From: a bacterium | GTDB lineage: Bacteria; Electryoneota; RPQS01 | Length of the DNA: 44,400 nt | Direction: 5' to 3' | Assembly: GCA_013360195.1 (NCBI GenBank) | Contig: JABWCQ010000021.1 | Location: forward strand, 1-44,400 | Part shown: positions 10,837-28,420 of the stretch, in pieces | How positions within the stretch are numbered: position 1 is the stretch's first letter | How the letters are laid out: each line of letters starts with the position of its first letter | Made by a program: the position numbers and the translations under genes | Notes under the pieces: generated by a model | Told to the model about the DNA's origin: nothing | The model's database searches: none | What the model saw: only the letters and a program-made list of their open reading frames with translations

Positions 10837-11122
10837 GCATTTTGCGAACTGGAAAGAATGAGAGGAGTTGTCGATAAGTGTGTCGTGTTTTTTTTCGGGC
10901 AAGTGTGAAAATCTGTTCGCTCCTCTGCTTTTCCCTTTGAGGGTCTGGAATTTTCCAAATTTTTTTCAGTCAATATTTTACGGACAGGATGAAATCGCAA
11001 TCGTCATATTATTTGATGCGGCGAGTTGAAATTACACGTGGTCTTGCGCCGTCGTAGTTTCGCAACGTATATTTAGGGTGTTTAAGATAGAGTGCTTATT
11101 TGGCAAACTGAGGAGAAGCCTG
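10837..11122. other. Intergenic region, possible promoter at its end
   Basis: No gene can be supported here. The stretch is AT-rich between about 10950 and 11100. TATATT at 11068-11073 could be a -10 box for the exoprotein gene that starts at 11123, but the sequence 18 bases before it (TTGCGC) is a poor -35 box. Beyond that nothing is recognised. Confidence 0.35.
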
Positions 11123-12263: not shown

Positions 12264-15200
12264 CTATTTCAGGTCAACAAGCACGTCCGGCCTCAGGAAG
12301 TAGAGATGTTTGCGAGCGGGCGAACGGCCAAACAGTTTCTCGAACAGCGCAGCGTATGTGTCAATTTGTTCGCGATGATACTCTGTTCTCACGCCGACGG
12401 CTTCAGCGGGAATGTCATCCGACTTGTAGTCAAGCAGCACCCACTCGCCCGAAGCGGTTTCAAAGATCAGGTCAACGAATTTCGAGACGGGAGTGCCATC
12501 GGCTACGGCGACAATCGGCAGCTCCGTAATAACCGTTTTGGCCTGCGGCAGGTCAACGGTGAAGAGACTGGAAGCGGTGACATTTTCAATAATTCTGTCG
12601 GCTTCATCAAGTTCAGATGGATTCAGTTTGGATCCGCGCTGAACGAGTGTCCGTGCATGGTCGAGTTTGCGTCCCTTTGCAATCTGTTCCAGGACGGCAT
12701 GCACGTAGATACCGATTTTGCGCGCGCGTACCTGCCGCCAATCAACGGCAGTATCCTCTTCTTCCGTCCGGACAAAGGCCGGCCTAAGAGAGTTGACACG
12801 GCTTTCCAGCGAGGCTTGCCACTCTGCGTACTCCGCAATTCCCCGGTCTGAGACATCGGCATTCCATTTGAGACGCGAGGCAAGTGGTCGATAGTCCCTT
12901 AGGAGCACTGCGTTTGACGATGTCCGTACGGCCAGCGTGTTGTCAACGCACGGCAGATTGTCCTTGTCCAACGGATAGCGCGCCAACAGCGGTTCGGGGA
13001 TTTTGGGCTTGGATGACTTGTGGCTCGTCCGCTGCCAAGCGAGAGGCAGAATCAGTTTCCTGCGAGCGCGTGTCATTCCGACATAAAGAAGGCGATTCAG
13101 CTCCGCAGTGTGCGCAAGCACTTCCTGACCGGAGATTGTCTCCCAATTCAACGTGCAGTACCCGCCGTTATTCGCAGAAATTCCGATTTCATGACCGGTA
13201 TCATTGATGTTTTTCAGGACAGTCCAATCGCCGTCATTTTGTTTCGATTCGTCGTAGCGGAAGATATAGACATGGTCAAACTCCAGACCTTTGGCCTTGT
13301 GCAGCGACATAATCTGAACTGCGCGCCGTTCATCGTCGTGGGCATCCAGTTCCGTATTCTGCACGAGTTTCGTCATGGAGGAGATCCGCTCGACGATTGA
13401 GGACAGCGACGGCGTGCCGATTTGCTCAAAGCGCCGTACGTATTCGACCAGCGTCTGGATGTTCTGCACGCGCTGTGTGCCTTCCGACTTCAGGCCGAAG
13501 ATCAATTCCGTGTGGGTGACCGCAAGCAGCTCTTCGATCAGTGCGCTTGGACTCATGTGCTTGCTTTTCCTGTGCCATGAGAGCAAGCTGTCCAGCGCGG
13601 CGCCCACCGGACCGGTGCGCGGGAGGTTATCCGTGTAAACGAAACTGCCGCCGGACAGTTTATGTTCGAAGAGTTGATCATCCGACAATGCAAACCAGAC
13701 CGAGCGCAGTGCGCCGATTACCGCGACAGTATGCTGGGGGTTGGAAATGGCAAGAAGCATGGTCAGCACGGATTCAATTTCGACGCGTCCGACGTAGGCC
13801 TCATTGATGAAGCTGATGAAGGGAATGTCCCGCGCGCCAAGCGCCTCCTGCAACCGAGATATGTGCGTGCCCGAACGCATGAGAATCGCCACTTGCGAAA
13901 AGCAGAAGCCGGGAGTATTTTGAGCTAACGTATTGATGTGTTCGGCGATGGCGGCGGCTTCCCATTTGGCAGCAAGCGCCGCGTTTTGCGACAGCCGGTC
14001 GTACGTGGCCGGCGGCACAAGCAGTTCCACTGCACGGTCATCGTCGCTCGCCTCATCGGAGGGAACAAGATCCACGTAGTCTGACTCGTACTCATTCCGC
14101 GCACTCATCAGCGGCCGCGTGATTTCGTTGACTTCGGAGAGAATGCCTTTGAAGCTTCGGAAGTTTTTCGTTATGGTAAGCTTGTTGCCTTCCTTTTCGA
14201 TTTCGGAGGCGACTTTGTTGTAAATGCGCACGTCAGCGCCGCGAAACCGGTAGATAGATTGCTTCGGGTCGCCGACCACGAACAGTTTGCCGGGTTCGAG
14301 CTCAATGTCCTGCCATCGCGTCACATGAGTTAGTTTTGATTCGCAGATGTAGAAAAGAATTTCGGCCTGAACTGGATCGGTGTCCTGAAACTCGTCAATG
14401 TGGACATGGTCAAATCTGCTCTTGAAGAAGTCCCGCGCAATTTTGGAATCCCGGAGCATGTTCCGGCAGAGCAGCAATTGGTCGTCAAAACCAATCATGC
14501 CCCGGCTGCGCAGGGATTCGCGGAATTGCAGCACAGCCGGGGCAAGCCAGCGTTTGCAATCGCTGCAGACGACAGACATGGCTGTGTTTCGCAGGTTCCG
14601 CACACTCTGTGTAAAATCGGCGTAACGGCTGCGTGCTTCATCCAGCGTTCCGACAGCCCAATTTGATTTGCTTCCTTTTTGTTTTGACGCAGCGTCACCT
14701 GCGCTGAGCCACAATACACCTTGATCAGACCAGATTTCCGCAGGCCGGGTGTTGTACCAGTTCAGCGCGCTTTCAATCTGTCTCAGAAGCTTGTCGTCCG
14801 GATTGCTGCAATGCTGAATCATGGGGGCGAGGTTTGCGACGGCATGTTCGAGCGGTGCGACTGCCTGCACGACTTCCTCGACCGAGTCGGCGCCCGTGGA
14901 AAGCTCATCGGGGTCCAGCATTGACAACACGAGACGGTCGAACAGACTACTCAGACTTTTTGTATCGTTGCCGAGCAAATTCAGACCAAGCAGATCGGCA
15001 AAAGCAAAGGACGCGGGCACATCAAGATCGAGAGCTCGTGTCAGCCAGCTCTCGCGAAAATCCTTCATGGCAACTTGCTGTTGCAGTTCATCCAGTGAAG
15101 TAAATTCGGGAGGCAGTTTAGCTTCAACGGGCAGCATCCGCAGGAATTCCGCGGCCATGCCGTGAATGGTGTTGATGGTCATGCGGTCGAGGTTTTCAAG

Positions 15201-15443
15201 GGCTTGACGCGCATGCTGTGATTCAGATTTGCGGAGTTGATTGCGGAGCCGCTGTTTCATCTCGCCCGCCGCTTTAACGGTAAATGTCACGGCGGCAATA
15301 CGCTCGGGATGAATTCCAGCTTCAATCATGCTGCAGATGCGATTGACGAGGAGCGTCGTTTTTCCGGTACCTGCACCTGCTTCGACCAGAATGGTTTTGC
15401 GGAAGTTTTGCTGCGCTTCAAGACGCGCTGCGCTGTCATTCAT
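12264..15443 (-). CDS. addA: AddA-type UvrD/Rep-family helicase-nuclease subunit
   Basis: About 1059 residues. This is a superfamily 1A helicase fused to a C-terminal RecB-like nuclease, the AddA partner of a double-strand-break end-processing enzyme. Walker A AGAGTGKTT has Lys28; further motifs are DEFQDTDPVQ (Walker B), GDPKQSIYRFRGAD, MSLHKAKGLEFDHVYIFR and LLYVGMTRARR. The nuclease core is near the C-terminus (FVDLIFETASGEWVLLDYKSDD, the PD-(D/E)XK signature). The start at 15443 overlaps the upstream gene's stop by 8 bases; an alternative at 15473 has its purine run too close to serve as a ribosome binding site. It forms an operon with the AddB-like gene. AddAB resects ends for RecA-dependent repair in many bacteria; that role is inferred here. 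Confidence 0.9.
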   Translation of the reverse strand: MNDSAARLEAQQNFRKTILVEAGAGTGKTTLLVNRICSMIEAGIHPERIAAVTFTVKAAGEMKQRLRNQLRKSESQHARQALENLDRMTINTIHGMAAEFLRMLPVEAKLPPEFTSLDELQQQVAMKDFRESWLTRALDLDVPASFAFADLLGLNLLGNDTKSLSSLFDRLVLSMLDPDELSTGADSVEEVVQAVAPLEHAVANLAPMIQHCSNPDDKLLRQIESALNWYNTRPAEIWSDQGVLWLSAGDAASKQKGSKSNWAVGTLDEARSRYADFTQSVRNLRNTAMSVVCSDCKRWLAPAVLQFRESLRSRGMIGFDDQLLLCRNMLRDSKIARDFFKSRFDHVHIDEFQDTDPVQAEILFYICESKLTHVTRWQDIELEPGKLFVVGDPKQSIYRFRGADVRIYNKVASEIEKEGNKLTITKNFRSFKGILSEVNEITRPLMSARNEYESDYVDLVPSDEASDDDRAVELLVPPATYDRLSQNAALAAKWEAAAIAEHINTLAQNTPGFCFSQVAILMRSGTHISRLQEALGARDIPFISFINEAYVGRVEIESVLTMLLAISNPQHTVAVIGALRSVWFALSDDQLFEHKLSGGSFVYTDNLPRTGPVGAALDSLLSWHRKSKHMSPSALIEELLAVTHTELIFGLKSEGTQRVQNIQTLVEYVRRFEQIGTPSLSSIVERISSMTKLVQNTELDAHDDERRAVQIMSLHKAKGLEFDHVYIFRYDESKQNDGDWTVLKNINDTGHEIGISANNGGYCTLNWETISGQEVLAHTAELNRLLYVGMTRARRKLILPLAWQRTSHKSSKPKIPEPLLARYPLDKDNLPCVDNTLAVRTSSNAVLLRDYRPLASRLKWNADVSDRGIAEYAEWQASLESRVNSLRPAFVRTEEEDTAVDWRQVRARKIGIYVHAVLEQIAKGRKLDHARTLVQRGSKLNPSELDEADRIIENVTASSLFTVDLPQAKTVITELPIVAVADGTPVSKFVDLIFETASGEWVLLDYKSDDIPAEAVGVRTEYHREQIDTYAALFEKLFGRSPARKHLYFLRPDVLVDLK

Positions 15444-18400
15444 TGTCGTCGGCTCCGGTTTCTTCCGTATCATCCTTTGCTGTGCGGTTTGTACGAAGGT
15501 TGGGAACGGCAGATGAATTAAACGCTTTTCCTGAGTGTCTTTGCGCTCCGCAGGCCAGTTTGACGGAGCAGTATTTACAGGCTGTAGAATCGTCTTCCGC
15601 CGGGTCCGGCGCGAAGATGCCGGTGCGTAAATCGGACAACAACGACGCGGCTACGGACAACGCTTCCGCGCGGGACTCGGCATCCGAGGCAACGTCTCGC
15701 AATGCGCCGGCGATGTAGTAGTATTGCGCGCTGACATTGGCAGCGGGGGCAGCAGACTCGGCCGCGAGCCGGTAGATTTCCCGCTGCAGCCTGCGCTCCA
15801 TCTTGCGGGAGTTCTTTTTGGGCGGAGACCCGCTCTTGTAATCAATGATGTTTATTTCCCGGCCAGCGGCATCGCTGTCCCACCGGTCAATGCGGCCCTT
15901 GAAGAGTATTTGCTCTTCGTCGGGGAATGTGTAAGGCACGGCCGCGGGCATTGGAGGTTTGCCGAATCCGAAGCTCAACTCCACGTGCCGGGTAAGCCAA
16001 ACCGTGTCACTGTTGAACAGATCGGCGTAGTATGATTGCAGCAAGAGCAGAATTTGCTGTCTGAGTTTTGCAGCGGCAAAGCGCGACCCAATTGGAAACT
16101 TGCGCGCGTAGGACGTAATCTCTTCCAGAGCTATGCTGCGGAGTTCGTCCCATGTGTAGTGTTCGCCGGTCACGGGAAGATTAAGCTTCCGGCCATGATA
16201 GCGTTGGAGAATATTGTGCAGAAGAGTTCCCTTTTCGCGTTCGGTAAGCGGAGACAGTTTGTTAACCGATTCGGGCGCGTAAGCCTCCCAGAGCCTTGTC
16301 ACGAGGAAGCGAAAGGGGCATTTCCAATAGTCTTCGAGCGTGGAAGCCGAAATCGCGATATCGCGCGAGAATGTCGTGTTGAGATGTGCGAGCGCAGTGC
16401 TGTTGGAAATGAGTCCGTCGGAATTTGTGTAGGCACGCGCGCTGAAGCGGGAGACTTCTGAATTGACGATTCGCTGAAATTCCGAATCCTGCGCGAGATG
16501 GGACAGTGCATGTGTGTTGCCGTCCTGCAGCGCATCGAAGAGTTTGCGGCGATTGTATTCACTGCGGCTCACAGGTGTTGCGCTGCGGCTGACACGCAAT
16601 GGATTGGACAGAGTTTGACGATTGGGCAAGGTTTTAAGCAAAGAGTCCAGCTCTTCGGCCGTCAGCGGAACACTGTTCTGGATTTCGCACAGTTCCGCGA
16701 TATAGGGAGATTTCAGCAAGGGGCGTCCGTCGGCATCGGATTGCGAATAGCAGATTGTCACGCTTTCCGTGGCCGAGCGGAGCTGCATTTCAAGCAGAAA
16801 GCGCTCGCGCACCAGAGAGTCTTTCGCTAACGGCAGTGACGCGGAGAGTGTGGTGTTCAGTTGATACCGGTCGGCATCAAGCAACAGCGGATCCTGCTTC
16901 TGCAGATGTGGAACGGTTCCTTCGTTGAAGCCGGGCAGGAAGACATGGGGGAATGTTGCGCCGAGCGCGACTTCGCGCGGGGCAACGATTGGGGTTCCGG
17001 CGTTAAATTTGCCGGTGCGGGTTCCCGGTGTTTCGAGAGCGGATAGAAGGAACTCGCGCAGTCCATGTGCAGTGCAGGGCACGCGTGCGGCGTCGAGCAG
17101 TGAAGCCTGTTCGAGCTGATGTGTCAAACCGGCAAACTCTTCATCAAGCTCGATGCTCTCCTTGTAATATTCCCAGACAGCAGCTACACCCGATTCCCAC
17201 GATGCCGCGCTTGCCGCCCGCTGAATCATCGCGTCAAGCTCTCGCATGAATGCAAGACAAGCGTTGGCGTTTTCAATTCGCCGCCGCACGTCAACGACGC
17301 TATCCTCCTCCTCATCCTGTCCGGCAAACTTGCTTGCGTGGTATTCGAGCTGTTCAGTTTTCCGGGAGATGCGGTACTCCCAGTCCTTTAGCCCGGCGAT
17401 GACATAGGATTCCTCGGCAAGACGAATCCACTCGCCTGTCAGGGAGGCAATGGACGAAATGAACGGTGCGGATGCGAGATAGTCTGCGACCCGTTCGCGT
17501 GACAATTCACCATCCAGCAGTTCGACCAGAGCAGAGAGTCCTCGTCCGGCAGCGGTCTGACCAACGGTCTTTGCCTCGTAAATGTAGGGATGCAGTCCGA
17601 TCATTTGACATCTGGTCTCAAGAACAGCGGCGAGCGCACCGCTTCCGGCGAGCAGAACGGCAGCACTGCCGGACTTGATCGACTCATTGTCAATAATGTC
17701 GCGGATTATTTCGGTGGCAGCCGCGGACTCGCGCGGGGTGCTAACAAAACGAATGTCCGTGTACTGTACGGCGGCGTTCTCCTCCCGGGACTCCGTAAAT
17801 CCGCTGCTCATGTACCATTGATAAGTGTCCTTATTGTATTCATAGGCGCGGCGGTCGGCAACCCATGGAAGAAACGCGGTCACGTCCAGGTTTGACATGA
17901 CTTTGCCAAGAATTGAACGGGTCAACGGCGGGAGTTCGAAGACACAGTAGAGGTTGAGTGGAGCACGAAGATTTATGTTTGTCCTGGCTGCACGATATGC
18001 GAGCTGCTGAAGCATGGCACTGTCGTGCAGTTTAAGTTTCTCCAGCGCCTGATTCACGGCAGAGTAAAGGAGTGCGAGATCGTGCAGCTTGTATTCACGC
18101 TCACGGTCGGCAAACAGCACGCGATTCAGGTCGGCCGGGGCGATTTCGTGCAGAATGAGATCACGGCGAGTTTTCAGCAAGGCCCGGCGGAAGCCGGCCG
18201 AATTCGCAACCGGTTTGAGATACTTCAGCTTTCCGTACTCTGCGCTCAGGACATTTTCCAGCAGCGGGTCAACCGCAGCCTCGCTGAGAGTACTCCAGCC
18301 TTCCTCAAGAACTACCGGTTCTGCCAGCGCGTGCATCAGGTCCGTCACAGTTTTGAACCGGATGTTTGCGGCAATTTGAAGCTTCCCAGCCAAGAACCGC

Positions 18401-18558
18401 TGCAGATGCAGCCGCGCGAGCTGATTAGGTACAATGACCCACACTTCGGCAAGCGGGTCACTTTTTTTGAGATCGCGCAATGACTTGGCAAGAGTCTCTT
18501 CGAGAAAACGAAGATGACCCGTAAAAAGCTGATGTGGCTTCATGATTGAACTGCTCAT
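15436..18558 (-). CDS. addB: AddB-like inactivated helicase with iron-sulfur nuclease domain
   Basis: About 1040 residues from the ATG at 18558; a GTG at 18603 or an ATG at 18543 are other choices. The N-terminal half resembles an SF1 helicase fold, but no Walker A (GxGKT) is visible, so ATPase activity is probably lost. The C-terminal domain is a PD-(D/E)XK nuclease (INIIDYKSG). It is flanked by the AddB iron-sulfur signature: one Cys in DYWKCPFRF and a C-x2-C-x5-C cluster (CKYCSVKLAC) near the end. This arrangement is typical of AddB/RexB subunits. It overlaps addA by 8 bases and is divergent from motA, with only about 120 bases between them. Confidence 0.87.
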   Translation of the reverse strand: MSSSIMKPHQLFTGHLRFLEETLAKSLRDLKKSDPLAEVWVIVPNQLARLHLQRFLAGKLQIAANIRFKTVTDLMHALAEPVVLEEGWSTLSEAAVDPLLENVLSAEYGKLKYLKPVANSAGFRRALLKTRRDLILHEIAPADLNRVLFADREREYKLHDLALLYSAVNQALEKLKLHDSAMLQQLAYRAARTNINLRAPLNLYCVFELPPLTRSILGKVMSNLDVTAFLPWVADRRAYEYNKDTYQWYMSSGFTESREENAAVQYTDIRFVSTPRESAAATEIIRDIIDNESIKSGSAAVLLAGSGALAAVLETRCQMIGLHPYIYEAKTVGQTAAGRGLSALVELLDGELSRERVADYLASAPFISSIASLTGEWIRLAEESYVIAGLKDWEYRISRKTEQLEYHASKFAGQDEEEDSVVDVRRRIENANACLAFMRELDAMIQRAASAASWESGVAAVWEYYKESIELDEEFAGLTHQLEQASLLDAARVPCTAHGLREFLLSALETPGTRTGKFNAGTPIVAPREVALGATFPHVFLPGFNEGTVPHLQKQDPLLLDADRYQLNTTLSASLPLAKDSLVRERFLLEMQLRSATESVTICYSQSDADGRPLLKSPYIAELCEIQNSVPLTAEELDSLLKTLPNRQTLSNPLRVSRSATPVSRSEYNRRKLFDALQDGNTHALSHLAQDSEFQRIVNSEVSRFSARAYTNSDGLISNSTALAHLNTTFSRDIAISASTLEDYWKCPFRFLVTRLWEAYAPESVNKLSPLTEREKGTLLHNILQRYHGRKLNLPVTGEHYTWDELRSIALEEITSYARKFPIGSRFAAAKLRQQILLLLQSYYADLFNSDTVWLTRHVELSFGFGKPPMPAAVPYTFPDEEQILFKGRIDRWDSDAAGREINIIDYKSGSPPKKNSRKMERRLQREIYRLAAESAAPAANVSAQYYYIAGALRDVASDAESRAEALSVAASLLSDLRTGIFAPDPAEDDSTACKYCSVKLACGAQRHSGKAFNSSAVPNLRTNRTAKDDTEETGADDNE

Positions 18559-18675
18559 TATCGATTCTTCACAATGCCTTTCGGGGCATTTACGCTGGGG
18601 CACACCGATTGCGATGGATGGGTGCGATGAATCGTGTAAAACCTCGAACTAACTGAAGCTAATCTCAAAGACGCT

Positions 18676-19545
18676 ATGGCAATAGTTGGTGTTTTGGTCG
18701 TTATCGGCGGCGTTATCGGCGGTTTCCTGATGGCAGGCGGCGCAATCGGAGTTCTGATTCAGCCGTCTGAAGTCGTGGTGATTTTCGGCGCAACGATTGG
18801 CGGACTGTTAATTTCGGTTCCAGTCGCAACGCTGAAGGCTCTTGTGACGGACATGATGGGAATCATGACCGGGAAATCGGGGCCGTCGAAAGATACCTAC
18901 ATTCAAACGCTGTTGTTACTCAACGAGCTGTTTCAAATGGCCCGCAAAGACGGAATCATCGCGCTTGAATCGCATGTTAACGACCCGCACACCAGCAAGG
19001 TCTTCGAGAAGTATCCTCAGATACTTCACGACCACGGCGCTTTGGCTTACATTTGCGACACCATCAAGCTCTTTCTCGCCGGGTCAGTACCACCGCACGA
19101 GATCGAAATGCTGATGGATCAGGAAATCGACTCGCATCATGAAGAAGCGGGCATCACGGCCGGCGTGATCGCCAAAATAGCCGACGCACTTCCGGGACTC
19201 GGAATTGTCGCCGCAGTTCTTGGTATTATCATTACGATGGGTCACATTGACGGCGATCCGGCAGTAGTCGGTCATCACGTCGCCGCAGCACTCGTGGGAA
19301 CGTTCATGGGTGTTCTCTTCGCGTACGGATTCTTTTCACCGATGGCAGCGAACCTTGAAGCGCGCAACCGCAACAACGCGAGGCTGCTGCACGTTATCAA
19401 GGCAGGAATCTCAGCCTTTGCCAAGGGCATGGCGCCCTCTGTCTCGATAGAGTTTGCCCGCCGCGCGATCTTCCATTCCGACAGACCGTCGTTTGAGGAG
19501 ACGGAGAAGCTTTTGAAGGAAGCCAAGAACAAGAGTCACGGTTAA
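18676..19545 (+). CDS. motA: Flagellar motor stator protein MotA
   Basis: A 289-residue inner-membrane protein, the proton (or sodium) channel subunit of the flagellar stator. The N-terminus VGVLVVIGGVIGGFLMAGG and VVIFGATIGGLLIS mark TM1 and TM2. A large cytoplasmic segment follows (residues 55-170) and carries the charged EIDSHHEEAG region. TM3/TM4 lie in LGIVAAVLGIIITMG and AALVGTFMGVLFAYGFFSP, followed by a cytoplasmic tail. Length and layout fit the E. coli-type MotA. It is the first gene of an operon with motB. No flagellar sigma-28 promoter is seen in the 117 bases to addB. Confidence 0.93.
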   Translation: MAIVGVLVVIGGVIGGFLMAGGAIGVLIQPSEVVVIFGATIGGLLISVPVATLKALVTDMMGIMTGKSGPSKDTYIQTLLLLNELFQMARKDGIIALESHVNDPHTSKVFEKYPQILHDHGALAYICDTIKLFLAGSVPPHEIEMLMDQEIDSHHEEAGITAGVIAKIADALPGLGIVAAVLGIIITMGHIDGDPAVVGHHVAAALVGTFMGVLFAYGFFSPMAANLEARNRNNARLLHVIKAGISAFAKGMAPSVSIEFARRAIFHSDRPSFEETEKLLKEAKNKSHG

Positions 19546-19548
19546 GCC

Positions 19549-20457
19549 ATGGCAGAGCTGCACAACGACCCGCCGATTATACGAATCGTCAAGAAGGGGC
19601 ACGCACATGGCCACCACGGCGGCGCATGGAAAGTGGCGTTCGCCGACTTCGTAACGGCGATGATGGCGCTGTTCATCGTGCTGTGGATTCTTGGACAGTC
19701 CGAAGACGTCAAGCGCGGAATCGGCGGTTACTTCCGCGATCCAACCGGCAAGGCTTTGCTGGGAGCGGGACCCGCGGAAGCGACCAGCAATGCGCAGGGT
19801 TTGTCGATCATTAAACTTCCTTCAGTCGCGCAAATGCACACGCTTCCCGACGCCGAACTGGAAAACGAAGCTGAGAAACTGAAACAGCTTATCGAAGAGA
19901 GCGACGTTTTTCAAGGGCTGAAGGATCAAATCACGATTGAAGTTTCGCACGAAGGGCTGCGGGTCGAAATCAACGAAGGCGAGAACGAGGTTCTCTTCGC
20001 ATCGGGCAGCGCGGAACTTTCACCGAAGCTGATTGCGGCACTCAAGGCGTTGGCGGCGGAGTACAGCAAAGTGAACAATAAACTGATTCTTGAAGGACAC
20101 ACCGACGCCGCGCAGTTTTCGAACAGCAGCAACATAACGAATTGGGAGCTTTCCACACAGCGCGCCAATGAAGCGCGGAGGGTGATGGAGCAGGCCGGTT
20201 TGTCGGGGGATCAAGTCTTAATGGTGCGCGGATACGCCGACCGCAGGCCGCGTTTTGATGATCCGCTGGACCCGCGCAACCGCAGAATCTCCATGCTGCT
20301 TGTATCCGATCAAGGTATGGATATCGCACTGGGAAAACTCAGCAGTCTTGAGACCGGCGGCAACTCAGATGCCGGCCAGTCAGGAACGTCACAGAACGAC
20401 AAGCCTAAGAAAAGCAAGAACAGAGTTTCCCTATTTGCCACCGGGGGGCGAAACTGA
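19549..20457 (+). CDS. motB: Flagellar motor stator protein MotB
   Basis: A 302-residue stator subunit. After a basic, His-rich N-terminus comes GGAWKVAFADFVTAMMALF, the single membrane span with the ion-carrying Asp33, followed by a plug-like segment. The OmpA-type peptidoglycan-binding domain occupies about residues 150-255 (LEGHTDAAQF, STQRANEARRVM, VRGYADRRPRFDDP). A Ser/Lys-rich tail ends the protein. It begins 3 bases after the motA stop, and its own stop overlaps the next start (TGATG), so all three genes are translationally linked. Confidence 0.93.
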   Translation: MAELHNDPPIIRIVKKGHAHGHHGGAWKVAFADFVTAMMALFIVLWILGQSEDVKRGIGGYFRDPTGKALLGAGPAEATSNAQGLSIIKLPSVAQMHTLPDAELENEAEKLKQLIEESDVFQGLKDQITIEVSHEGLRVEINEGENEVLFASGSAELSPKLIAALKALAAEYSKVNNKLILEGHTDAAQFSNSSNITNWELSTQRANEARRVMEQAGLSGDQVLMVRGYADRRPRFDDPLDPRNRRISMLLVSDQGMDIALGKLSSLETGGNSDAGQSGTSQNDKPKKSKNRVSLFATGGRN

Positions 20458-21599
20458 TGGGTTCGAATTTCAGATCACGCGTCTTGTATCTTTTGAATAC
20501 GGATGAGCGAAACGCACCAGAAGCTGTGCTGCAGGCCGCGGAGACTCGTTGCATCCGCCGCGGCTGTCAGCCTGATCTATCCATAAAGCAGTTTGATCCG
20601 GCGGTAATTGTCATCGGTGCGCCGATGGATCACGACGCTCATATCGCACTCGATCGAGTCTCGACATTGATGCTTCCTGTGCTCGGATTCGGCACGGGGC
20701 CGTGCGAACGATTGATGTGTGACGTGTCGGTCACAATTGCCATGACGGACTTGCGCTCGATGATTTCACTGCTCGCCAGTCCGGCGACGCTTTGCGCGCT
20801 TCCGCCGGGACAGGGAGTAAACGGCATCGGCACATGGCTGAAGCACTCGGCGGATGATTTCGCGCAGATGATGGAGCATCTGCTTGCGCTGCGTATGCCT
20901 GATTACCGTGACCGCGCCGAGCGCGTGGTACAGGCATGTTTGTGGATCGGCTCACATCTCGGTATGGGCGGAGAAGAGCTGAATACACTTCAGCTCGCGG
21001 CGAGAATGCGAGAAATCGGCAAGCTGGGTTTGCCCGACAAGATATTGTTCACTCCGCGTGAACAGCGCACACCCGATGAGCAGGCGATGTACGACCGTTA
21101 TCCGATGCTCGGTGCGCGGGTGTTGAGACAGTTTCCGGTTTTTTCGGCGGCGGCGAAGATTGTTGAATATTGTCTCGAAAATTTCGACGGTTCCGGTGCG
21201 ATGAATCTGGCCGCGCATCAGATTCCGCTCGGTTCGCGCATTCTTCGAGTTGCCAGCGCGTTTCAGATGATTACGGATACGGGCACCAAAGGCCGGGACG
21301 AAGTGGTTCATGTGCTCGGCCGGGGCAGAGGTTCCCTGTACGACCCGATGATTGTGGGACTCGTCGAGAACTATGCCACACTCGCCACGGCGCAACTGAA
21401 CAAGGGTGCCGCAACGCGGCGCGTCCGCCTGTCGGACCTGCATGAAGGGATGGTGCTGGCCGAAGACATCTGGAGCCGCACCGGAGTGAAGATTGTCGGT
21501 TCGGGAACGCGGCTTAATGAGCACATCATCCGGATACTGATGACGCTTCCCCTTAATATGGCAATAGAATCCGTGGAAGTCCAGAGGGACTTTCAATAA
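20457..21599 (+). CDS. Degenerate HD-GYP-like protein, stator operon copy 1
   Basis: A 380-residue protein. Residues 1-115 form an alpha/beta domain that may be a receiver relative without recognisable phosphorylation residues. Residues of about 145-275 align with HD-GYP c-di-GMP phosphodiesterases (IGKLGLPDKIL, PMLGARVLRQFP, FDGSG, IPLGSRILRVASAFQMI). The metal-binding HD pair is Arg185-Glu186, the HH pair before DGSG is Cys-Leu, and the first His (HxxRV) is Asp152. The C-terminal domain (LSDLHEGMVLAEDI, then IVGSGTRL) is also common beside HD-GYP domains. Catalysis is therefore unlikely; a binding or scaffold role is inferred. The start overlaps the motB stop, suggesting a role at the flagellar motor. 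Confidence 0.85.
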   Translation: MGSNFRSRVLYLLNTDERNAPEAVLQAAETRCIRRGCQPDLSIKQFDPAVIVIGAPMDHDAHIALDRVSTLMLPVLGFGTGPCERLMCDVSVTIAMTDLRSMISLLASPATLCALPPGQGVNGIGTWLKHSADDFAQMMEHLLALRMPDYRDRAERVVQACLWIGSHLGMGGEELNTLQLAARMREIGKLGLPDKILFTPREQRTPDEQAMYDRYPMLGARVLRQFPVFSAAAKIVEYCLENFDGSGAMNLAAHQIPLGSRILRVASAFQMITDTGTKGRDEVVHVLGRGRGSLYDPMIVGLVENYATLATAQLNKGAATRRVRLSDLHEGMVLAEDIWSRTGVKIVGSGTRLNEHIIRILMTLPLNMAIESVEVQRDFQ

Positions 21600-21609
21600 G
21601 GAGTGAATT

Positions 21610-21900
21610 TTGGAAGTATGGTATTTACTGGTTCTTGTGCCGCTGATTCAGCTGGTCAGGGCGCTGGTGGATGCCTGGAAACTGCTCCTCGAAGCTGCGG
21701 ACGATGACGAGCGTCAGGAGATTATCGCAAATGCGGGAGCGAAAGCACTCATCAATACGATTCTGGCGGTTGCTATCGCGGTCGCGCCTTGGCCGTATAA
21801 CTTATTGGGACTTGTTCCCATTGCAATCCCGCCGCTCATGAGCGGCATAGCTTCATTATTCGGTGTTACATTGTTTTGGAAATTTCACGGTAAATTTTGA
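21610..21900 (+). CDS. Small membrane protein of the stator operon
   Basis: A 96-residue protein of unknown function, starting with TTG at 21610 behind AAGGAG. A hydrophobic N-terminus (VWYLLVLVPLIQLVRAL) is followed by an acidic, amphipathic stretch (EAADDDERQEI) and then one or two further hydrophobic segments (TILAVAIAVAPWPYNLLGLVPIAI by parts, then MSGIASLFGVTLFW). It lies 10 bases after the first HD-GYP-like gene and 55 before the second, so it is probably co-transcribed. No family is recognised. Confidence 0.7.
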   Translation: MEVWYLLVLVPLIQLVRALVDAWKLLLEAADDDERQEIIANAGAKALINTILAVAIAVAPWPYNLLGLVPIAIPPLMSGIASLFGVTLFWKFHGKF

Positions 21901-21955
21901 TTTTTCGGACACACCACCACAATGGATACGTGAACTTTGACCTGGGGAAACTGTG

Positions 21956-23104
21956 ATGGTTAATCAGAAATTCAAGGTTTTATTCCTTACCACCCGCGCT
22001 CGCGAGCTGTTCCCGCAGAGCCTTGTGACGATTGCCAATGTGACCGCATTGGACGTGACAGACGTTGCGGCTGCTCCCATACTCCATAACATTGCCCCTG
22101 ACTGGATAATCTGCTGCAGCGTGCCCGTGGAGCATAGAATCGCGCCGATTCTTGCCATGCTGAAGGCCAAGGGGCTGCCAATTCTCGGTCTCGGTCCGAC
22201 ACACACGGATATGGTTGACGTTGTGCTCTCCAAGTTCACGCCGATACATTCGATGCGCAGCGCCTGTCATCTGCTAATCATGCTCTCGCAAACGAAGGCA
22301 GAGACAAAGGTAAAAGAGGAATTCCCTCCGTTGGATCTTAAGGACCTGATCGAGATTCTTGAGCGTGCGGTCAATCTCCGGGTTCCCGGCAGCCACGAGC
22401 GCGCCATTCGAATCGAAGCGCTGGCCGAACAGGTTGGACGGCATCTGCGTCTTTCCAAGCAGGAACTTGATGACTTGATGATTGCTGCAAGACTCCGTGA
22501 AATCGGTAAAATCGGCGTTCCGGACGAGTTGCTTTACACGGATCTGAGCGAAATGCCGCCGGAGCGGATTCGTATTTATGAGAATTACGCGGCGCTTGGG
22601 GCAGTGATTCTGCGCACGCTTCCGTCGCTGGAAGGTGTCGCCCTGTGTGTCGGATATCAGCTTGAGAATGTCGACGGAACCGGCCCATCCGGCGCGATGA
22701 TGAACAAGATTCCGATTGGCGCGAGAATTCTGCGTGCTTGCATCGCGTTTGAGCGGCTGGATGCCGCTGAAGGCACCGAGCGCGCCGCTGACAATCTGAC
22801 TCAGCTTTGGAGTAAGGCAAACACTCACTTCGATCCCAACGTTCTGGCGGCGCTCGATGCGACGGTCTCACAACGGGAATTCAAACCGGATGCAGACAGT
22901 TCTCTGATTCCTGTGGACGCATTAAGAGCCGGGATGCAGCTCGGACAGAGCCTGTATGACAGCAACGGATTCCGAATGCTTGCTTACGGGGCGGAAATCT
23001 CAGCTGCCAAAATCGACGCGATTGTCAGTTATCTTAAGCTCACGGGTCAGCGGGAGATTGCGGTCATCACCGAGTCCGTCGGCAAGCCGCACTCCATCGA
23101 ATAG
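21956..23104 (+). CDS. Degenerate HD-GYP-like protein, stator operon copy 2
   Basis: A 382-residue paralogue of the gene at 20457, with the same layout: an N-terminal alpha/beta domain (KFKVLFLTTRAREL), an HD-GYP-like core at about 145-270 and a C-terminal domain (VDALRAGMQLGQSLYDSNGF). The HD pair is again Arg-Glu (RLREIGKIGVPDEL) and the HH pair before the Glu is Gln-Leu (YQLENVDGTG). The first His is kept here (GSHERAIRI). The shared RE replacement implies duplication after the loss of catalysis, or strong selection for that form. A GTG at 21953 would add one Met. A terminator follows 22 bases later, closing the operon. Confidence 0.85.
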   Translation: MVNQKFKVLFLTTRARELFPQSLVTIANVTALDVTDVAAAPILHNIAPDWIICCSVPVEHRIAPILAMLKAKGLPILGLGPTHTDMVDVVLSKFTPIHSMRSACHLLIMLSQTKAETKVKEEFPPLDLKDLIEILERAVNLRVPGSHERAIRIEALAEQVGRHLRLSKQELDDLMIAARLREIGKIGVPDELLYTDLSEMPPERIRIYENYAALGAVILRTLPSLEGVALCVGYQLENVDGTGPSGAMMNKIPIGARILRACIAFERLDAAEGTERAADNLTQLWSKANTHFDPNVLAALDATVSQREFKPDADSSLIPVDALRAGMQLGQSLYDSNGFRMLAYGAEISAAKIDAIVSYLKLTGQREIAVITESVGKPHSIE

Positions 23105-23126: not shown

Positions 23127-23156
23127 AAAGCCCCTCTGCCTTCGCAGAGGGGCTTT
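23127..23156. terminator. Bidirectional terminator
   Basis: AAAGCCCCTCTGC (23127-23139) pairs with GCAGAGGGGCTTT (23144-23156) around a CTTC tetraloop. It lies between the convergent stator operon and the exoprotein gene at 23179. Confidence 0.9.
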
Positions 23157-23178: not shown

Positions 23179-24171
23179 TTACTTCATCAGAATCATCTTA
23201 CGGGTCGCGCTGAAGGCACCGGCCTCCAGACGGTAGATATACATACCGCTGGTGAGGCTCGACGCATCAAAGTTCACCGTGTGACGTCCGGCGGCTTGCG
23301 GGCCGCTAACGAGCGTGGCGACTTCCTGGCCAACCAGGTTGAAGATACGCAGGCTGACGTTCGAAGCTTCAGCCAATTCGAAGCTGATGTTGGTCTCCGG
23401 GTTGAACGGGTTGGGGAAGTTCTGATCGAGTGCGAACTTCGCAACCACACCATTCGGAGCATCCGGCGTAGCGCTGGTCGCAGCCAACACTTCGCTCGAA
23501 CCATTCACATCAACCGATTCCAGCGTATAGGTGTAGGTGACGCCGTTGGTCACGCCGTTATCCACCCACGAGTAGCTGTGGCCAGCCGTGCTGTTCGTCG
23601 CGGCAATCTCGGTCGCCTTCACGCCATCACGGAGGATGTTGAAGTGATCCAGATCGGTCTCGCTGACGGTGCTGAAGTTGACGGTCACTTGACGGTCACC
23701 TGCGACGGCATCAAACGACGCGACTTCGGCGGCCAACTGATCGTCAAAGCTCAAGCAGAAGCAGCCCGAGCAAAGGCTGAAGATTTCGATTTCCCAGTAG
23801 CCGTCATGATTCCAGCGATAGGCGATTTCCATACAATCGCTGAATCCGGACCAATCCGTGGGGCTGGGGAAGAAGATTCCGCCGCCCAAAGTGAAAATGG
23901 ACGGGGGAGTAATGGGCTGACATGCAACATCACAGTCGCTAGACGACGGGTTGCAACCCGCGACGGCGGTGATGACAGGGATACCGGCCTGATCAAGATC
24001 CGCTCCGACGAGGAAGAAGTTGATCAGTCCGAATTGGCAAACCTGAATACAAGCGGACTCACCGAGGTGAAGCTCCGCAGGATAGCTGGGCGTGCACTGC
24101 GCCTGCACCGAATTCGGAGCGGCGATAAACAGCGCTGCGGCCAGCATCATAATAGCAAATACCTTTTTCAT
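23179..24171 (-). CDS. Secreted protein with type IX-like C-terminal sorting domain
   Basis: A 330-residue exoprotein. The chosen ATG at 24171 starts a clean signal peptide (MKKVFAIMMLAAALF ... NSVQA then QC) behind CGGAG; a start at 24201 would put ten polar residues in front. The Cys-rich central domain (residues 25-140) has no recognised family. An FN3-like domain (VASFDAVAGDRQVTVNFS, VSETDLDHFNIL) leads into the sorting tail from about residue 250 (NFPNPFNPETNISFEL, FNLVGQEVATLV, GMYIYRL, ending MILMK). It lies 59 bases after the paralogous exoprotein gene, so the two are probably co-transcribed from the promoter at 25648-25676. Confidence 0.85.
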   Translation of the reverse strand: MKKVFAIMMLAAALFIAAPNSVQAQCTPSYPAELHLGESACIQVCQFGLINFFLVGADLDQAGIPVITAVAGCNPSSSDCDVACQPITPPSIFTLGGGIFFPSPTDWSGFSDCMEIAYRWNHDGYWEIEIFSLCSGCFCLSFDDQLAAEVASFDAVAGDRQVTVNFSTVSETDLDHFNILRDGVKATEIAATNSTAGHSYSWVDNGVTNGVTYTYTLESVDVNGSSEVLAATSATPDAPNGVVAKFALDQNFPNPFNPETNISFELAEASNVSLRIFNLVGQEVATLVSGPQAAGRHTVNFDASSLTSGMYIYRLEAGAFSATRKMILMK

Positions 24172-24230
24172 GCGGTCAATCTCCGTGGTTTTTGTGGTCA
24201 TCCTACGTGGTGCTTGGAAGTGCTGTAATC

Positions 24231-25562
24231 TTACTTCAGATAGAGCATCTTCTGCGACGCGGTGAATTCACCGGCCGTCAGCGTGTACATATACACGCCC
24301 GTAGCAAGGCCTTCAGCCGACCAGTTCACCGTGTGGACGCCAGCAGCCATCGTGCCGTTAACCACAGTGGCAACCTCACGACCCAGCATGTCATAGACCT
24401 TCAGGCTGACGTTGCCGGCAACCGGGAGGCTGAAATTGAAGCTGGTCTGAGCGTTGAACGGATTCGGGTAATTCTGGGCCAGTTCGTAGTTAAGTGCCAC
24501 AGCGCCGCTCTGCGGAGTCGCTTCGGCAACAACGGATTGACCGTCGATGTTGTAAACGCTGACGTTGCCGTTCACGTCTTCAACATGGAGTTTGTAGTAA
24601 TAGGTCTTGCCATTGGTGACATCGTTGTCAACAAAGGTGTAGTTGTTACCCGTGGCGTTATTGGTGGCTTCGATCGCGGCCAGACCATAATAGCCGAAGT
24701 CGCGATTTTCGCTGCGGGTAATACGGAACTCACGCAAATCAGATTCGCTCATCGTGCTCCAGTTCAACGTCACCTCGCCGTCACCGGCAACAGCGTCAAA
24801 GCCATTGATTTCGACGGGCAGGATGAAGTCCGAACGCCAGATGCAGACGCAACCGGGGTCAACGCCGCAATAGGACATCGTCAAGAAGAGCAAGCAGTTC
24901 GGGAACACGCGAATGTTCCAGTTGAAGAGTGACCAGTCCACGCCGGCGCAATCCGGATTGTCGCAATGCGAACCTTCAGCCGGGTTGCAACGGTTGGTCA
25001 CCGTGATTTCAAGGGTACCCGGCGTATGGCCCGGATCTTCGCATTCAATCGGAATCACGAACGTGCCGTGGCAGATCGTGGCGCAGAACGCGGAATTGAT
25101 GGGAATCGACGCCGGCAGAACCGGGGTGCAGCCGTCCGTCACGTATTCAAGAGTCTGTCCGTCCAGAGTTTGAACGTTGTTCCAGTCAAAAATGTCAACC
25201 GTGTATTCAAGCTGGCTCCAGTCCAAGCTCCAAACCTGAACTTGTGCGCCGACCTGAACCGACTGACCAATCTCGAGGTCACCTACAAACATGTCCAACT
25301 CGCACCAGTGGAAGTCCGTGTTCTCGGCCACGATTCCATCCACATACTGACCTGTCGATTCATCCCAGCGCTGCGGCAGACCGCAGGCGGCCGGAAGATG
25401 AATGAACGACACGATTGCGTTAAACGGGGTCGCATCGCCGAAGATCAAGTGCATTTTCTGATTCTGTTCATCGAATGCCAACGTGGCATCATCCAAAGCG
25501 AGGGCGTTCCCACAAAACAGGGCAGCCAACGCAAGGACCAAAACAAGTCGCATTTTCTTCAT
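24231..25562 (-). CDS. Secreted protein with type IX-like C-terminal sorting domain
   Basis: A 443-residue exoprotein and tandem relative of its downstream neighbour. The signal peptide is MKKMRLVLVLALAALF ... NALA. A Cys-rich N-terminal domain without a recognised family runs to about residue 270. The FN3-like module (EINGFDAVAGDGEVTLNWS, MSESDLREFRITRS) then leads to a sorting tail from about 362 (NYPNPFNAQTSFNFSL, VYDMLGREVATVV, GVYMYTL, ending MLYLK). A near-consensus sigma70 promoter lies about 80 bases upstream, and GAGAGGTGTGGG precedes the ATG. The substrate or binding partner is unknown. Confidence 0.86.
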   Translation of the reverse strand: MKKMRLVLVLALAALFCGNALALDDATLAFDEQNQKMHLIFGDATPFNAIVSFIHLPAACGLPQRWDESTGQYVDGIVAENTDFHWCELDMFVGDLEIGQSVQVGAQVQVWSLDWSQLEYTVDIFDWNNVQTLDGQTLEYVTDGCTPVLPASIPINSAFCATICHGTFVIPIECEDPGHTPGTLEITVTNRCNPAEGSHCDNPDCAGVDWSLFNWNIRVFPNCLLFLTMSYCGVDPGCVCIWRSDFILPVEINGFDAVAGDGEVTLNWSTMSESDLREFRITRSENRDFGYYGLAAIEATNNATGNNYTFVDNDVTNGKTYYYKLHVEDVNGNVSVYNIDGQSVVAEATPQSGAVALNYELAQNYPNPFNAQTSFNFSLPVAGNVSLKVYDMLGREVATVVNGTMAAGVHTVNWSAEGLATGVYMYTLTAGEFTASQKMLYLK

Positions 25563-25874: not shown

Positions 25875-26645
25875 TTATTGGCCTATTCTGTGTCGAAAGA
25901 ACAGGTTTTCTGCACAAATAGTGGTTATCCTGTCAATTTCTGTGATGCTTATGCTATGTATTTCCGATAACTTAGCTGCTATCTCACGTGTGAAAAAAGG
26001 TTCACATCTTTTGCCCCGGTGAGGCACCGGTGCCATAAATGGAGCATCCGTTTCGAGCAAAATTCGGTCAAGCGGAAGCCGGGCGGCAAGTGCCGGAAGG
26101 GTCGAGTTCTTGTAGGTGATGTTCCCCGTAAATGAGATGTGAAATCCGGCATCAAGAACACGTTTGGCGTATTCATAGTCTTCCGAGAAGCAGTGGAACA
26201 CCCCTTTGCGATTGCCCGCAGACTCGATTATCTCAATCGTGCGCAGACCCGCCGCGCGGTGATGTATCACCACGGGCAGGTCCACACGGCGGGCGAGTTC
26301 GAGAAGTCTTTCAAAGAGTTTCTCCTGCTCTTTGATATTCGTTTCTCCGCGATAGATGTCCAGGCCGATCTCACCCACTGCCACCACCGCGGGGTCACCG
26401 ACTGCGGCTTCAATCCAATCGAGATCGTCCTCAGTTATCCTGGATGTCTCGCTCGGATGCACTCCTAATGCGCAGAAAACCTGACCGGGAAAACGGTTCA
26501 CCAATTCGAGGCATTGTTCACCGGTCTCCTTGTCAACGGCGATTGTAATCGCCCGGTCCACGCCGCCCGCTTTCGCGCGCGCCATAACTTCGTCAAGGTC
26601 GTCTGCAAAATGTTCGTAATAGAGATGGCAGTGGGTGTCAATCAT
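25875..26645 (-). CDS. TatD family metal-dependent hydrolase
   Basis: A 256-residue cytosolic TIM-barrel hydrolase of the TatD deoxyribonuclease family (YcfH/YjjV-like). Metal ligands are visible: DTHCHL (HxH, residues 3-8), GEIGLD (Glu), VIHHR (His), FHCFSE (His) and LLETDAPFMAP (Asp), followed by the family signature PHRGKRCEP. Length matches the family. The start overlaps the stop of the upstream exoprotein gene (TAATG), so the two are translationally coupled although their roles seem unrelated. TatD proteins are 3'-5' exonucleases in DNA or RNA quality control; the exact substrate here is unknown. Confidence 0.93.
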   Translation of the reverse strand: MIDTHCHLYYEHFADDLDEVMARAKAGGVDRAITIAVDKETGEQCLELVNRFPGQVFCALGVHPSETSRITEDDLDWIEAAVGDPAVVAVGEIGLDIYRGETNIKEQEKLFERLLELARRVDLPVVIHHRAAGLRTIEIIESAGNRKGVFHCFSEDYEYAKRVLDAGFHISFTGNITYKNSTLPALAARLPLDRILLETDAPFMAPVPHRGKRCEPFFTREIAAKLSEIHSISITEIDRITTICAENLFFRHRIGQ

Positions 26646-28420
26646 TACTTCAGGTATTGGAGTTTGGTCGTGTCGCGCAGTTTGCCCTGCAAATCCACCA
26701 GTGACACGAAATACGTGCCGCTTGAAAGTTGCTGCGGATTGAAGCGGATACTTCCCGAGCTTTGCAGGAGTTCCGCAAACTGTCTGACCAACCGGCCTGT
26801 GATGTCGAAAACTTCTATGCGAGCTGACTGATTATGAGGAAGTCTGTAGTGAATGGTCGTCTCGCCGTTAAACGGATTGGGAAAGGCAGTCACGGAATAA
26901 TCGCGAGGAAGGTGGGGAAATTCTTCCGCCCGCGCGGTTTCCCCTTCGGACACGTTCAGCGTAATATTGGAACCAACATTGACAAAATAGTCTCTTGCTC
27001 CCGAGGGCCAGCGAATCTCGACCGAATCGGCAGTCACCGCGTCTCCCAAGCCGAAATGCACCGACAGGCTGTTGTGTCCGCAGAAGCTGTTCTGCGTGTT
27101 CACTTCGCGAATCTGCCACATGGAGACGCCGCCAATTACGGCTTTCATCCTGACCACGGCTCCGACTCCCGACCGATTGCTTTCCGTGCCGGTCAGTTTC
27201 AACTTCAGCCAGTGATTTCCGTTTGTCGTCTCGTTGCGGTAGAAACCTTGTGCGGCTCCAACACCCGAGAAGAATAAGTCAAGGTCGCCGTCGTCGTCAT
27301 AGTCGCTCGCGGCAGGGCAGCGAAAAACACCCGCCACAGTGAACGGTGTCATCAGGCTCTCGAATTCGCCGTTTCCAAGATTACGGTAATACTTGTTTGT
27401 GCCTGTCTCGTTTGAGATAACGCAGTCGAGCCAGCCGTCGTTATCAAAGTCGCCCCAGCAATTTCCCAGTGACGTTTGCCGATCGGTGACAATCGCCCCT
27501 TCGATAATCTGCACATAGGCGCCATTATCGTTGCGATAGAAGTCGTTGCGTCTGCCGCCGTTGAATCCCGCTGTGTAGTTCGTGATGTAGCAATCGAGGT
27601 CGCCGTCATTGTCGAAATCAATCCAGTTAATGTTCTGGCCATCGCGCGCTGTCCCGGTCAAATTGTTGCCCGTCCAATGAGCTAACTCCGCCGTCCCGGT
27701 TTGTGCAAGCGTGTTGCGGTAGAAATAATCCACTCCGGGAGCGGATACCGGGCCGCTGCCGATATTGAAATCCAGATCTCCATCGAGATCAAAGTCCGCG
27801 AAGCTACCTATCGTGTATGCTGCCAGTCCGGTCACGACATCGCTGTCCGTTATCCGGGTAAAGGAGTAGTTCGGAGGCCCGTCGTTGCGAAACATGATGT
27901 TGGGTATGCTTGGATTCCCCAGAAAGCCCGCCGGATGCGTGACAATCATATCCACATTGCCGTCACTGTCATAATCCCCCCACGCGCAGGACCAGCCGCG
28001 GTAGTCGTGTCCGCTGAAACCGATGTCGCCTTCATCAATCGGAGTGAACAGGTCGTTGCCTTCATTGCGATAGAGAATCGAATTGGGCGAGCCGGACAAG
28101 TAGAGGTCGGGGTCTCCGTCGTTGTCGTAGTCCGCCCAACTTCCGCCTGAGCCAAGGCCGGTATTGGCGATGATTCCGATGCCGACATTGACGAATGCTC
28201 CGTTGCCGTCATTGCGGTACAGCAAGTTGCGGTTTACCCACAGGTCGTCGTCTCCGTCAAGATCATAGTCCACCCAAGCGCAGCCGCGATATCCGGATGT
28301 TCCGGGAGTGACGGCCGCTTCATTCTGCGGGTCGGTGATTCGAACAAACGTTTGCGACTGCGCGACCGTGCCGACCAAGCACATCATTCCTACCAGAGTT
28401 TTGCGAATCGTTGCAAGCAT
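26645..28420 (-). CDS. FG-GAP/VCBS repeat exoprotein with ASPIC/UnbV and sorting domains
   Basis: A 591-residue secreted protein. The signal peptide ends near residue 22 (GTVAQSQ). Seven or so FG-GAP/VCBS repeats fill residues 30-400, each with a calcium-binding DxDxDGDxD-like loop (DYDLDGDDDLW, DYDNDGDPDLY, DFDNDGDLDCY) and a YRN element, which predicts a beta-propeller. An ASPIC/UnbV domain follows (SGVGAVVRMK, HFGLGD, VEIRWPSG, about 420-490). The sorting tail starts at about 510 (AFPNPFNGETTIHYRL, VFDITGRLVRQF, ending KLQYLK). It is likely surface-attached or released. The gene overlaps tatD. Confidence 0.92.
   Translation of the reverse strand: MLATIRKTLVGMMCLVGTVAQSQTFVRITDPQNEAAVTPGTSGYRGCAWVDYDLDGDDDLWVNRNLLYRNDGNGAFVNVGIGIIANTGLGSGGSWADYDNDGDPDLYLSGSPNSILYRNEGNDLFTPIDEGDIGFSGHDYRGWSCAWGDYDSDGNVDMIVTHPAGFLGNPSIPNIMFRNDGPPNYSFTRITDSDVVTGLAAYTIGSFADFDLDGDLDFNIGSGPVSAPGVDYFYRNTLAQTGTAELAHWTGNNLTGTARDGQNINWIDFDNDGDLDCYITNYTAGFNGGRRNDFYRNDNGAYVQIIEGAIVTDRQTSLGNCWGDFDNDGWLDCVISNETGTNKYYRNLGNGEFESLMTPFTVAGVFRCPAASDYDDDGDLDLFFSGVGAAQGFYRNETTNGNHWLKLKLTGTESNRSGVGAVVRMKAVIGGVSMWQIREVNTQNSFCGHNSLSVHFGLGDAVTADSVEIRWPSGARDYFVNVGSNITLNVSEGETARAEEFPHLPRDYSVTAFPNPFNGETTIHYRLPHNQSARIEVFDITGRLVRQFAELLQSSGSIRFNPQQLSSGTYFVSLVDLQGKLRDTTKLQYLK

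Follow-up and report, generated by a model that had tools for sequence, protein, structure and literature searches.

What do two HD-GYP-like proteins do in an operon that encodes a flagellar stator? The question is raised by positions 18,676 to 23,104 of a 44,400-nucleotide stretch of DNA (the window; contig JABWCQ010000021.1 of GenBank assembly GCA_013360195.1, from a bacterium of the Electryoneota), where the stator genes motA and motB are followed by two homologous genes for HD-GYP-like proteins, hd1 and hd2, and by a gene for a small membrane protein, smp. From comparison of their sequences, we consider it probable that hd1 (and hd2) regulates MotA/MotB as a non-enzymatic partner, derived from a response regulator with a receiver and an HD-GYP domain, in which the fold was kept for protein interaction. 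The features of the locus are as follows.

18676..19545, + strand: motA, flagellar stator gene of the TIGR03818 type (341 bits against a cut-off of 304, E = 3.2e-102), with matches to MotA_N and MotA_ExbB
19549..20457, + strand: motB, stator gene with MotB_plug (1.6e-15) and an OmpA-like peptidoglycan-binding domain (OmpA, 2.2e-14)
20457..21599, + strand: hd1, receiver-like N terminus, dead HD-GYP domain (HD_5, 8.6e-27), and C-terminal GMxLAxD domain
20457..20801, + strand: hd1 N-terminal domain (residues 1–115), predicted from the topology of the model to have a receiver-like fold without a phospho-acceptor Asp
20868..21350, + strand: hd1 HD-GYP domain (residues 138–298), every metal ligand replaced
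21408..21584, + strand: hd1 C-terminal domain (residues 318–376), LxEGMVLAEDxxSxTGxKIxxxGT, conserved family-wide
21610..21900, + strand: smp, 96-residue hydrophobic protein with two to three membrane-spanning stretches by hydropathy and a PYN motif
21953..23104, + strand: hd2, second dead HD-GYP protein (HD_5, 5.8e-29), a lineage-specific paralogue
22355..22843, + strand: hd2 HD-GYP domain (residues 135–297), ligand positions G/R/R/E/Y/Q/L/I
23130..23153, + strand: terminator-like hairpin, GCCCCTCTGC-CTTC-GCAGAGGGGC with a perfect 10-bp stem, followed by T-rich TTTCTATTT

Loss of the metal site and of the nucleotide clamp

Both proteins match the HD_5 profile strongly (94 bits for hd1 and 101 bits for hd2, curated cut-off 27.2), and they are 29% identical to each other (E = 1e-37). 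Alignment with PmGH, whose residues E185, H189, H221, D222, H250, H276, H277, and D305 served as the metal-ligand reference, reveals that no ligand is kept: the eight positions read D/R/R/E/Y/C/L/S in hd1 and G/R/R/E/Y/Q/L/I in hd2. The Tyr of the GYP motif is opposite a gap in all ten aligned proteins of the window's lineage, which comprise hd1, hd2, and their relatives from the same taxonomic family. The original prediction had described an Arg-Glu pair in place of the HD pair and the loss of the HH pair in both copies; this is correct, and the loss is larger than claimed. Its expectation that phosphodiesterase activity would be absent agrees with the missing ligands and GYP Tyr. The two other HD_5 proteins of the window genome retain the HD, HP, HH, and D ligands as well as an R-x-Y motif, so the ligand loss is specific to hd1 and hd2. 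One GGDEF protein is also encoded, and the cyclic di-GMP (c-di-GMP) machinery of this genome is apparently intact.

By alignment, then, hd1 and hd2 are related to HD-GYP proteins but have no metal site. Their fold is clearly that of an HD-GYP domain and the ExxDGxG loop keeps its E, D, and G, which would suit a genuine catalytic HD-GYP protein with unusual metal ligands. However, the replacements are Arg, Tyr, Leu, Gln, and Ser, and no alternative cluster of His or Asp residues is conserved in the family, so that such an enzyme is extremely improbable. The predicted structure of hd1 has a mean predicted local distance difference test score (pLDDT) of 84 and a predicted template modelling score (pTM) of 0.66. 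A Foldseek search with its HD-GYP domain returned PA4781 (4r8z_B, TM 0.76 on target), DvhD (9rbz), and PmGH (4mcw). Bd1817 and PmGH share the HD-GYP fold of hd1; PmGH is an active trinuclear-metal enzyme, and Bd1817 is an unconventional HDG'Y'P protein. To our knowledge, neither is encoded by a stator gene. In the C-terminal domain of hd1, residues L328, G331, M332, D337, G343, and K345 are conserved in the family alignment.

The two proteins belong to a wider family, for which 33 members adjacent to motAB were compared, from Ignavibacteriota, Acidobacteriota, Myxococcota/Deltaproteobacteria, and the window's lineage; most are response regulators with a receiver and an HD-GYP domain. The HD_5 profile matches 25 of 25 scanned members. 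The catalytic ligand set is lost in 33 of 33, and the replacements are largely shared: Arg at H189, Glu at D222, and Gln at H276 each occur in 28 members, and 32 have Asn after the Glu of HHE(R). Residues E241, G245, G247, and D296 are invariant. The members at L167/L168 and L216/L217 show further divergence (SH, SQ, AD). Because the replacements are common to members of several phyla, loss in an ancestor is probable, and the dead state was most simply inherited from this ancestor and then maintained. The Arg-Glu change in both copies had been read as a sign of selection. Selection on the shared altered residues is indeed probable, but two independent origins of the change are rejected, as it is an inherited state of the family (Asp to Glu in 28 of 33 members, across phyla).

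In a tree of the HD and C-terminal domains, the motAB-linked proteins lie on one side of a branch, and receiver HD-GYP proteins without stator linkage lie apart. When the linked and unlinked labels were shuffled, 0 of 500 shuffles gave a grouping as low.

The nucleotide pocket was compared with that of DvhD, a dead HD-GYP protein with SQ in place of HD that binds c-di-GMP and whose contact residues are published (PMC13090378). Ten DvhD contact residues were mapped on the family, anchored on M646/R650/Y652/R653, and the mapping reproduced all ten published residues checked. The Arg-x-Tyr-Arg clamp is lost: R653 corresponds to a gap in 33 of 33 members, and neither Arg at 650 nor Tyr at 652 is found in any of them. 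The contacts L577, K582, and E668 are not conserved either. An R-x-Y-[RK] clamp is retained in PmGH, in DvhD, and in both intact HD-GYP proteins of the window genome. Canonical c-di-GMP binding is unlikely because the clamp is lost in every member and the GYP Tyr is lost in the window's lineage; in hd1 and hd2, binding in the usual pocket is very probably absent.

These residues bear on the idea that hd1 is a c-di-GMP receptor at the stator, which would bind the nucleotide without hydrolysis as DvhD does and would brake or retarget the stator in place of PilZ brakes such as YcgR. A dead HD-GYP domain that binds c-di-GMP has a precedent in DvhD (PMC13090378), and the genome, with its GGDEF protein and two intact HD-GYP proteins, has a c-di-GMP system and yet no PilZ protein. 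Against this stand the lost clamp and GYP Tyr and the unconserved L577/K582/E668 positions of hd1 and hd2, when the active HD-GYP proteins of the same genome keep the clamp, and we regard such a receptor as improbable. No PilZ domain was matched in hd1 or hd2, and a search of the taxonomic family's 11 genomes, each of which has FliG, found no PilZ protein. The taxonomic family therefore lacks the known YcgR-type brake, which leaves room for another regulator but proves nothing. Of the dedicated, non-catalytic module that had been proposed to be encoded with the stator, the non-catalytic partner is upheld by the ligand loss and the motAB linkage, and the binding of c-di-GMP is not.

Linkage to motAB within and beyond the taxonomic family

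The five genes motA, motB, hd1, smp, and hd2 all lie on the + strand, in the order and with the TGATG overlap and single terminator that had been predicted. The motA gene is the sole MotA-like match of the window genome at E ≤ 1e-10. The start codon of hd1 shares one base with the stop codon of motB. The start codon of smp is TTG, preceded by AAGGAG, and a gap of 52 bases separates smp from hd2, for which an alternative start is possible at the ATG at 21956. About 25 nucleotides 3' of hd2, the hairpin closes the motA-to-hd2 unit. It was also flagged by a terminator scan, which overall found little more than it did in shuffled sequences. Opposite the hairpin is a convergent gene whose product has a C-terminal sorting-type tail. 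A scan of the unit for sigma-70-type promoters gave no strong candidate.

The sample of the phylum comprised 39 genomes including that of the window, and ten of the others belong to the window's taxonomic family. An hd1 orthologue is present in nine of these ten. The order motA-motB-hd1 was found in all nine motA-bearing genomes of the family (the window and eight others), with motB and hd1 overlapping by 1–4 nucleotides in each. In one of the draft genomes motB is interrupted (L101), and in another the contig end falls within hd1 (G036). One family member, G029, has FliG, though neither motA nor an hd1 orthologue was found. Because the short overlap recurs in nine of nine genomes, the adjacency of motB and hd1 is not due to chance. 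Unlinked copies in related genomes would have spoken against the original prediction; hd1 was found linked in all nine.

The same does not hold for the other two genes that had been placed with the stator. No hd2 orthologue was found in the 38 other genomes of the phylum, including the congener, and hd2 as a conserved second component is rejected. In the tree, hd2 and the hd1 clade are sisters (support 95/87), and the branch of hd2 is long, consistent with a fast-evolving duplicate. For smp, a Pfam profile search gave no match; there is one clear relative (G030, 51%, 1.6e-18) and one weak relative (G032, 23%, E 0.06), both directly after hd1, and the PYN motif is common to the three aligned sequences. 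As only hd1 is conserved, the hd1/hd2 pair is not a general feature.

Survey of gene neighbourhoods found stator linkage well beyond the window, in several phyla. The relatives come mostly from metagenome-assembled genomes, with taxonomy taken from record titles and genome grouping. A scan of named genomes looked for peptide patterns that mark degenerate members and is biased accordingly; the relatives that it detected came from records with the titles Acidobacteria, Ignavibacteriae/Ignavibacteriales, Bacteroidetes, and Deltaproteobacteria. They lie directly after motA-motB, except in Pleionea and in one Omnitrophota record. Surveys designed to avoid this bias used motB as bait in three phyla and did not presuppose an HD gene; they covered the best 30 loci per search, so that the fractions are not phylum-wide. 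For the Ignavibacteriota-type phylum, a receiver and dead HD-GYP protein is encoded downstream at 10 of 30 loci, one or two receiver-only genes at 19, and neither at one. The downstream form occurs at 2 of 30 loci in Acidobacteriota and at 9 of 30 in Myxococcota. None of the downstream HD-GYP proteins in these surveys is catalytically intact.

Other arrangements were seen near the stator genes. Linkage limited to downstream genes is rejected, since some Myxococcota and Acidobacteriota have an HD-GYP gene upstream of motA. At two loci (L231:821-2131 and L232:3456-4772), a receiver and HD-GYP gene lies directly upstream of motA and retains the majority of the catalytic residues, with HD, HP, and HH in place; Leu replaces the Lys of HDxGK, Ser occupies the position of the D305 ligand, and RPY is absent. 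Judging from these motifs, it is possibly an active cousin beside the stator. In one genome of the Acidobacteriota phylum, motA is immediately preceded by the gene for a 220-residue HD-GYP-like protein that lacks a receiver and whose second motif is changed to SRECLDG (L234:2361-3023). At Ignavibacteriota-type loci L147, L149-L163, L165, and L166, a stand-alone receiver of about 130 residues follows motB, a second receiver arrangement in the stator operon, and most of these loci add a receiver of about 220 residues with a kinase-like helical tail and the motif IGHKINNPLSSL. Away from motAB, a relative with the signature HQLENFDGSG in Pleionea sp. (L127:5458-6699) lies beside an H-NOX-looking gene and other response regulators, a neighbourhood that resembles nitric oxide-sensing arrangements of the HnoD type.

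The receiver divides the family. In 12 motAB-linked relatives of other phyla, receiver residues D12, D56, T86, and K108 are invariant, and a Response_reg match was obtained for 14 of 25 scanned members; members of the window's lineage gave none. The N terminus of hd1 has no Pfam Response_reg match, and neither a phospho-accepting Asp nor the receiver residue pattern is found in the alignment. In the model it has an alternating strand/helix topology, and Foldseek gives weak matches to the atypical receivers GlnR and AmiR, which we take to be receivers without classical phosphorylation. Comparison with the relatives' receivers by hhalign did not support homology (probability 1.5%). From the predicted topology, the weak fold matches, and the position, we infer that this domain may be a degenerate receiver. 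The receivers at L205, L216, and L217 also seem altered.

The loss of signalling residues in the window's lineage, the translational overlap with motB, and the small membrane protein adjacent in some genomes would also fit a factor that assembles or chaperones MotA/MotB, acting in membrane insertion, plug control, or stator turnover with no role in signalling. The complete, phosphorylatable receiver in other phyla argues for a signal input instead, and we doubt that hd1 is a factor of this kind.

A possible role at the stator

For a regulatory partner of MotA/MotB, the following sequence of events can be proposed. The ancestor would have been a response regulator with a receiver and an HD-GYP domain, encoded beside motAB. 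Its HD-GYP fold would have been retained as a protein-interaction module that chelates no metal and very probably takes no c-di-GMP in the usual pocket. The hd1 protein may bind the stator, or the interface of stator and rotor, and alter engagement, torque, or leakage. The sequences show the gene order, the overlap, the conservation, and the loss of residues for catalysis and nucleotide binding; physical binding to MotA/MotB and an effect on rotation are inferred. The receiver is intact in the relatives of several phyla, and contact with the stator is therefore probably controlled by phosphorylation there. In the window's lineage, with no phospho-site in the receiver-like domain, the input would be something else: another ligand, a partner protein, or the expression level. 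The motor brake or assembly factor that had been envisaged is a reasonable guess for hd1.

Several observations count against such a partner. Most Acidobacteriota and many Myxococcota motAB loci have no such gene, and other families of the window's phylum have motAB of the same type (MotA 44–47% identical) without an hd1-like gene. As many motAB loci do without it, stators can in general function in the absence of an hd1-type gene. The tree gives the motAB-linked proteins weak support (39/26) as an exact clade. Membership of the operon may reflect co-expression for chemotaxis-like signalling and not direct binding to the stator, and hd1 may have a non-canonical, unrelated site for c-di-GMP.

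Dead HD-GYP regulators are already known; HnoD, from work on Shewanella, is a dead regulator with a receiver and an HD-GYP domain. NosR is a degenerate HD-GYP response regulator with HG-GTP that sits with NosP/NosK and whose presumed targets are true c-di-GMP enzymes (PMC12570481). Like the stator-linked family, NosR and HnoD combine a receiver, an HD-GYP domain without catalytic residues, and a C-terminal extension, but the gene for NosR lies beside NosP/NosK and not beside motAB. The NosR model NF053512 matches 25 of 25 scanned members and is the best NCBIfam model for hd1 (4e-41), in a match that takes in the C-terminal domain. The scores of hd1 (141 bits) and hd2 (133 bits) are far below the curated cut-off of 400, and the two proteins are therefore not filed under NosR.

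This match, the action ascribed to NosR (PMC12570481), and the Pleionea relative beside an H-NOX-looking gene would favour an allosteric regulator of other c-di-GMP enzymes, of the HnoD/NosR kind, that merely shares an operon with motAB. However, the motor is indicated as the target by the linkage to one type of stator across several phyla, where receiver genes take the place of a missing HD-GYP gene. In addition, the operon encodes no enzyme partner. We think an allosteric role of this kind unlikely.

The known regulators of the motor target chiefly the rotor (CheY, Cle proteins, EpsE) or work through PilZ receptors of c-di-GMP. YcgR and FlgZ are PilZ motor brakes that act on or beside the stator (PMC5677366, PMC13432727); their likeness to hd1 would be in the mode of working only, and the PilZ fold and c-di-GMP binding set them apart. 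The Cle proteins of Caulobacter are CheY-like and bind c-di-GMP and FliM (PMC5677366). They are receivers at the flagellar motor, as is proposed for the family described here, but they have no HD-GYP domain, are not encoded in a stator operon, and bind c-di-GMP. DvhD (PDB 9RBZ), matched by both fold and sequence, also lacks the metal ligands; it keeps the Arg/Tyr/Arg clamp and the GYP Tyr, whereas the stator-linked family does not keep the clamp, and it has other domains (dCache, PAS) and another target. A literature search for motAB-linked HD-GYP proteins, with many subscription papers outside its scope, found no description of such a family.

More tentatively, with the balance of our judgement against it, the family may form a c-di-GMP-independent class across several phyla, made up of response regulators whose dead HD-GYP domain would make direct contact with MotA/MotB, under the control of receiver phosphorylation in most lineages and of something else in that of the window. 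This would be a two-component switch on the power-generating stator and not on the rotor, as for CheY and FliM. Many bacteria, mostly uncultured, would then tune the stator by phosphorelay or direct protein contact. Apart from this reading, the family appears to offer a clear example of an enzyme fold that now serves for binding, having lost both its catalytic site and its ligand clamp. Automatic annotation would take its closest name from the NosR family ('c-di-GMP phosphodiesterase'), a label that should not be given to these proteins.

Neighbouring genes in the window

The products of 23179-25562, 11078-12214, and 26645-28420 have C-terminal sorting-type tails, matched by Por_Secre_tail in the latter two, which suggests type IX-like secretion. 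A gene of this sorting-tail type also follows hd1 in several related genomes. Divergent from motA, the region 12264-18603 on the – strand encodes two large proteins that resemble an AddAB pair, the first a UvrD-type helicase that carries a PD-(D/E)XK nuclease domain. The second also adjoins motA in the congener (L095).

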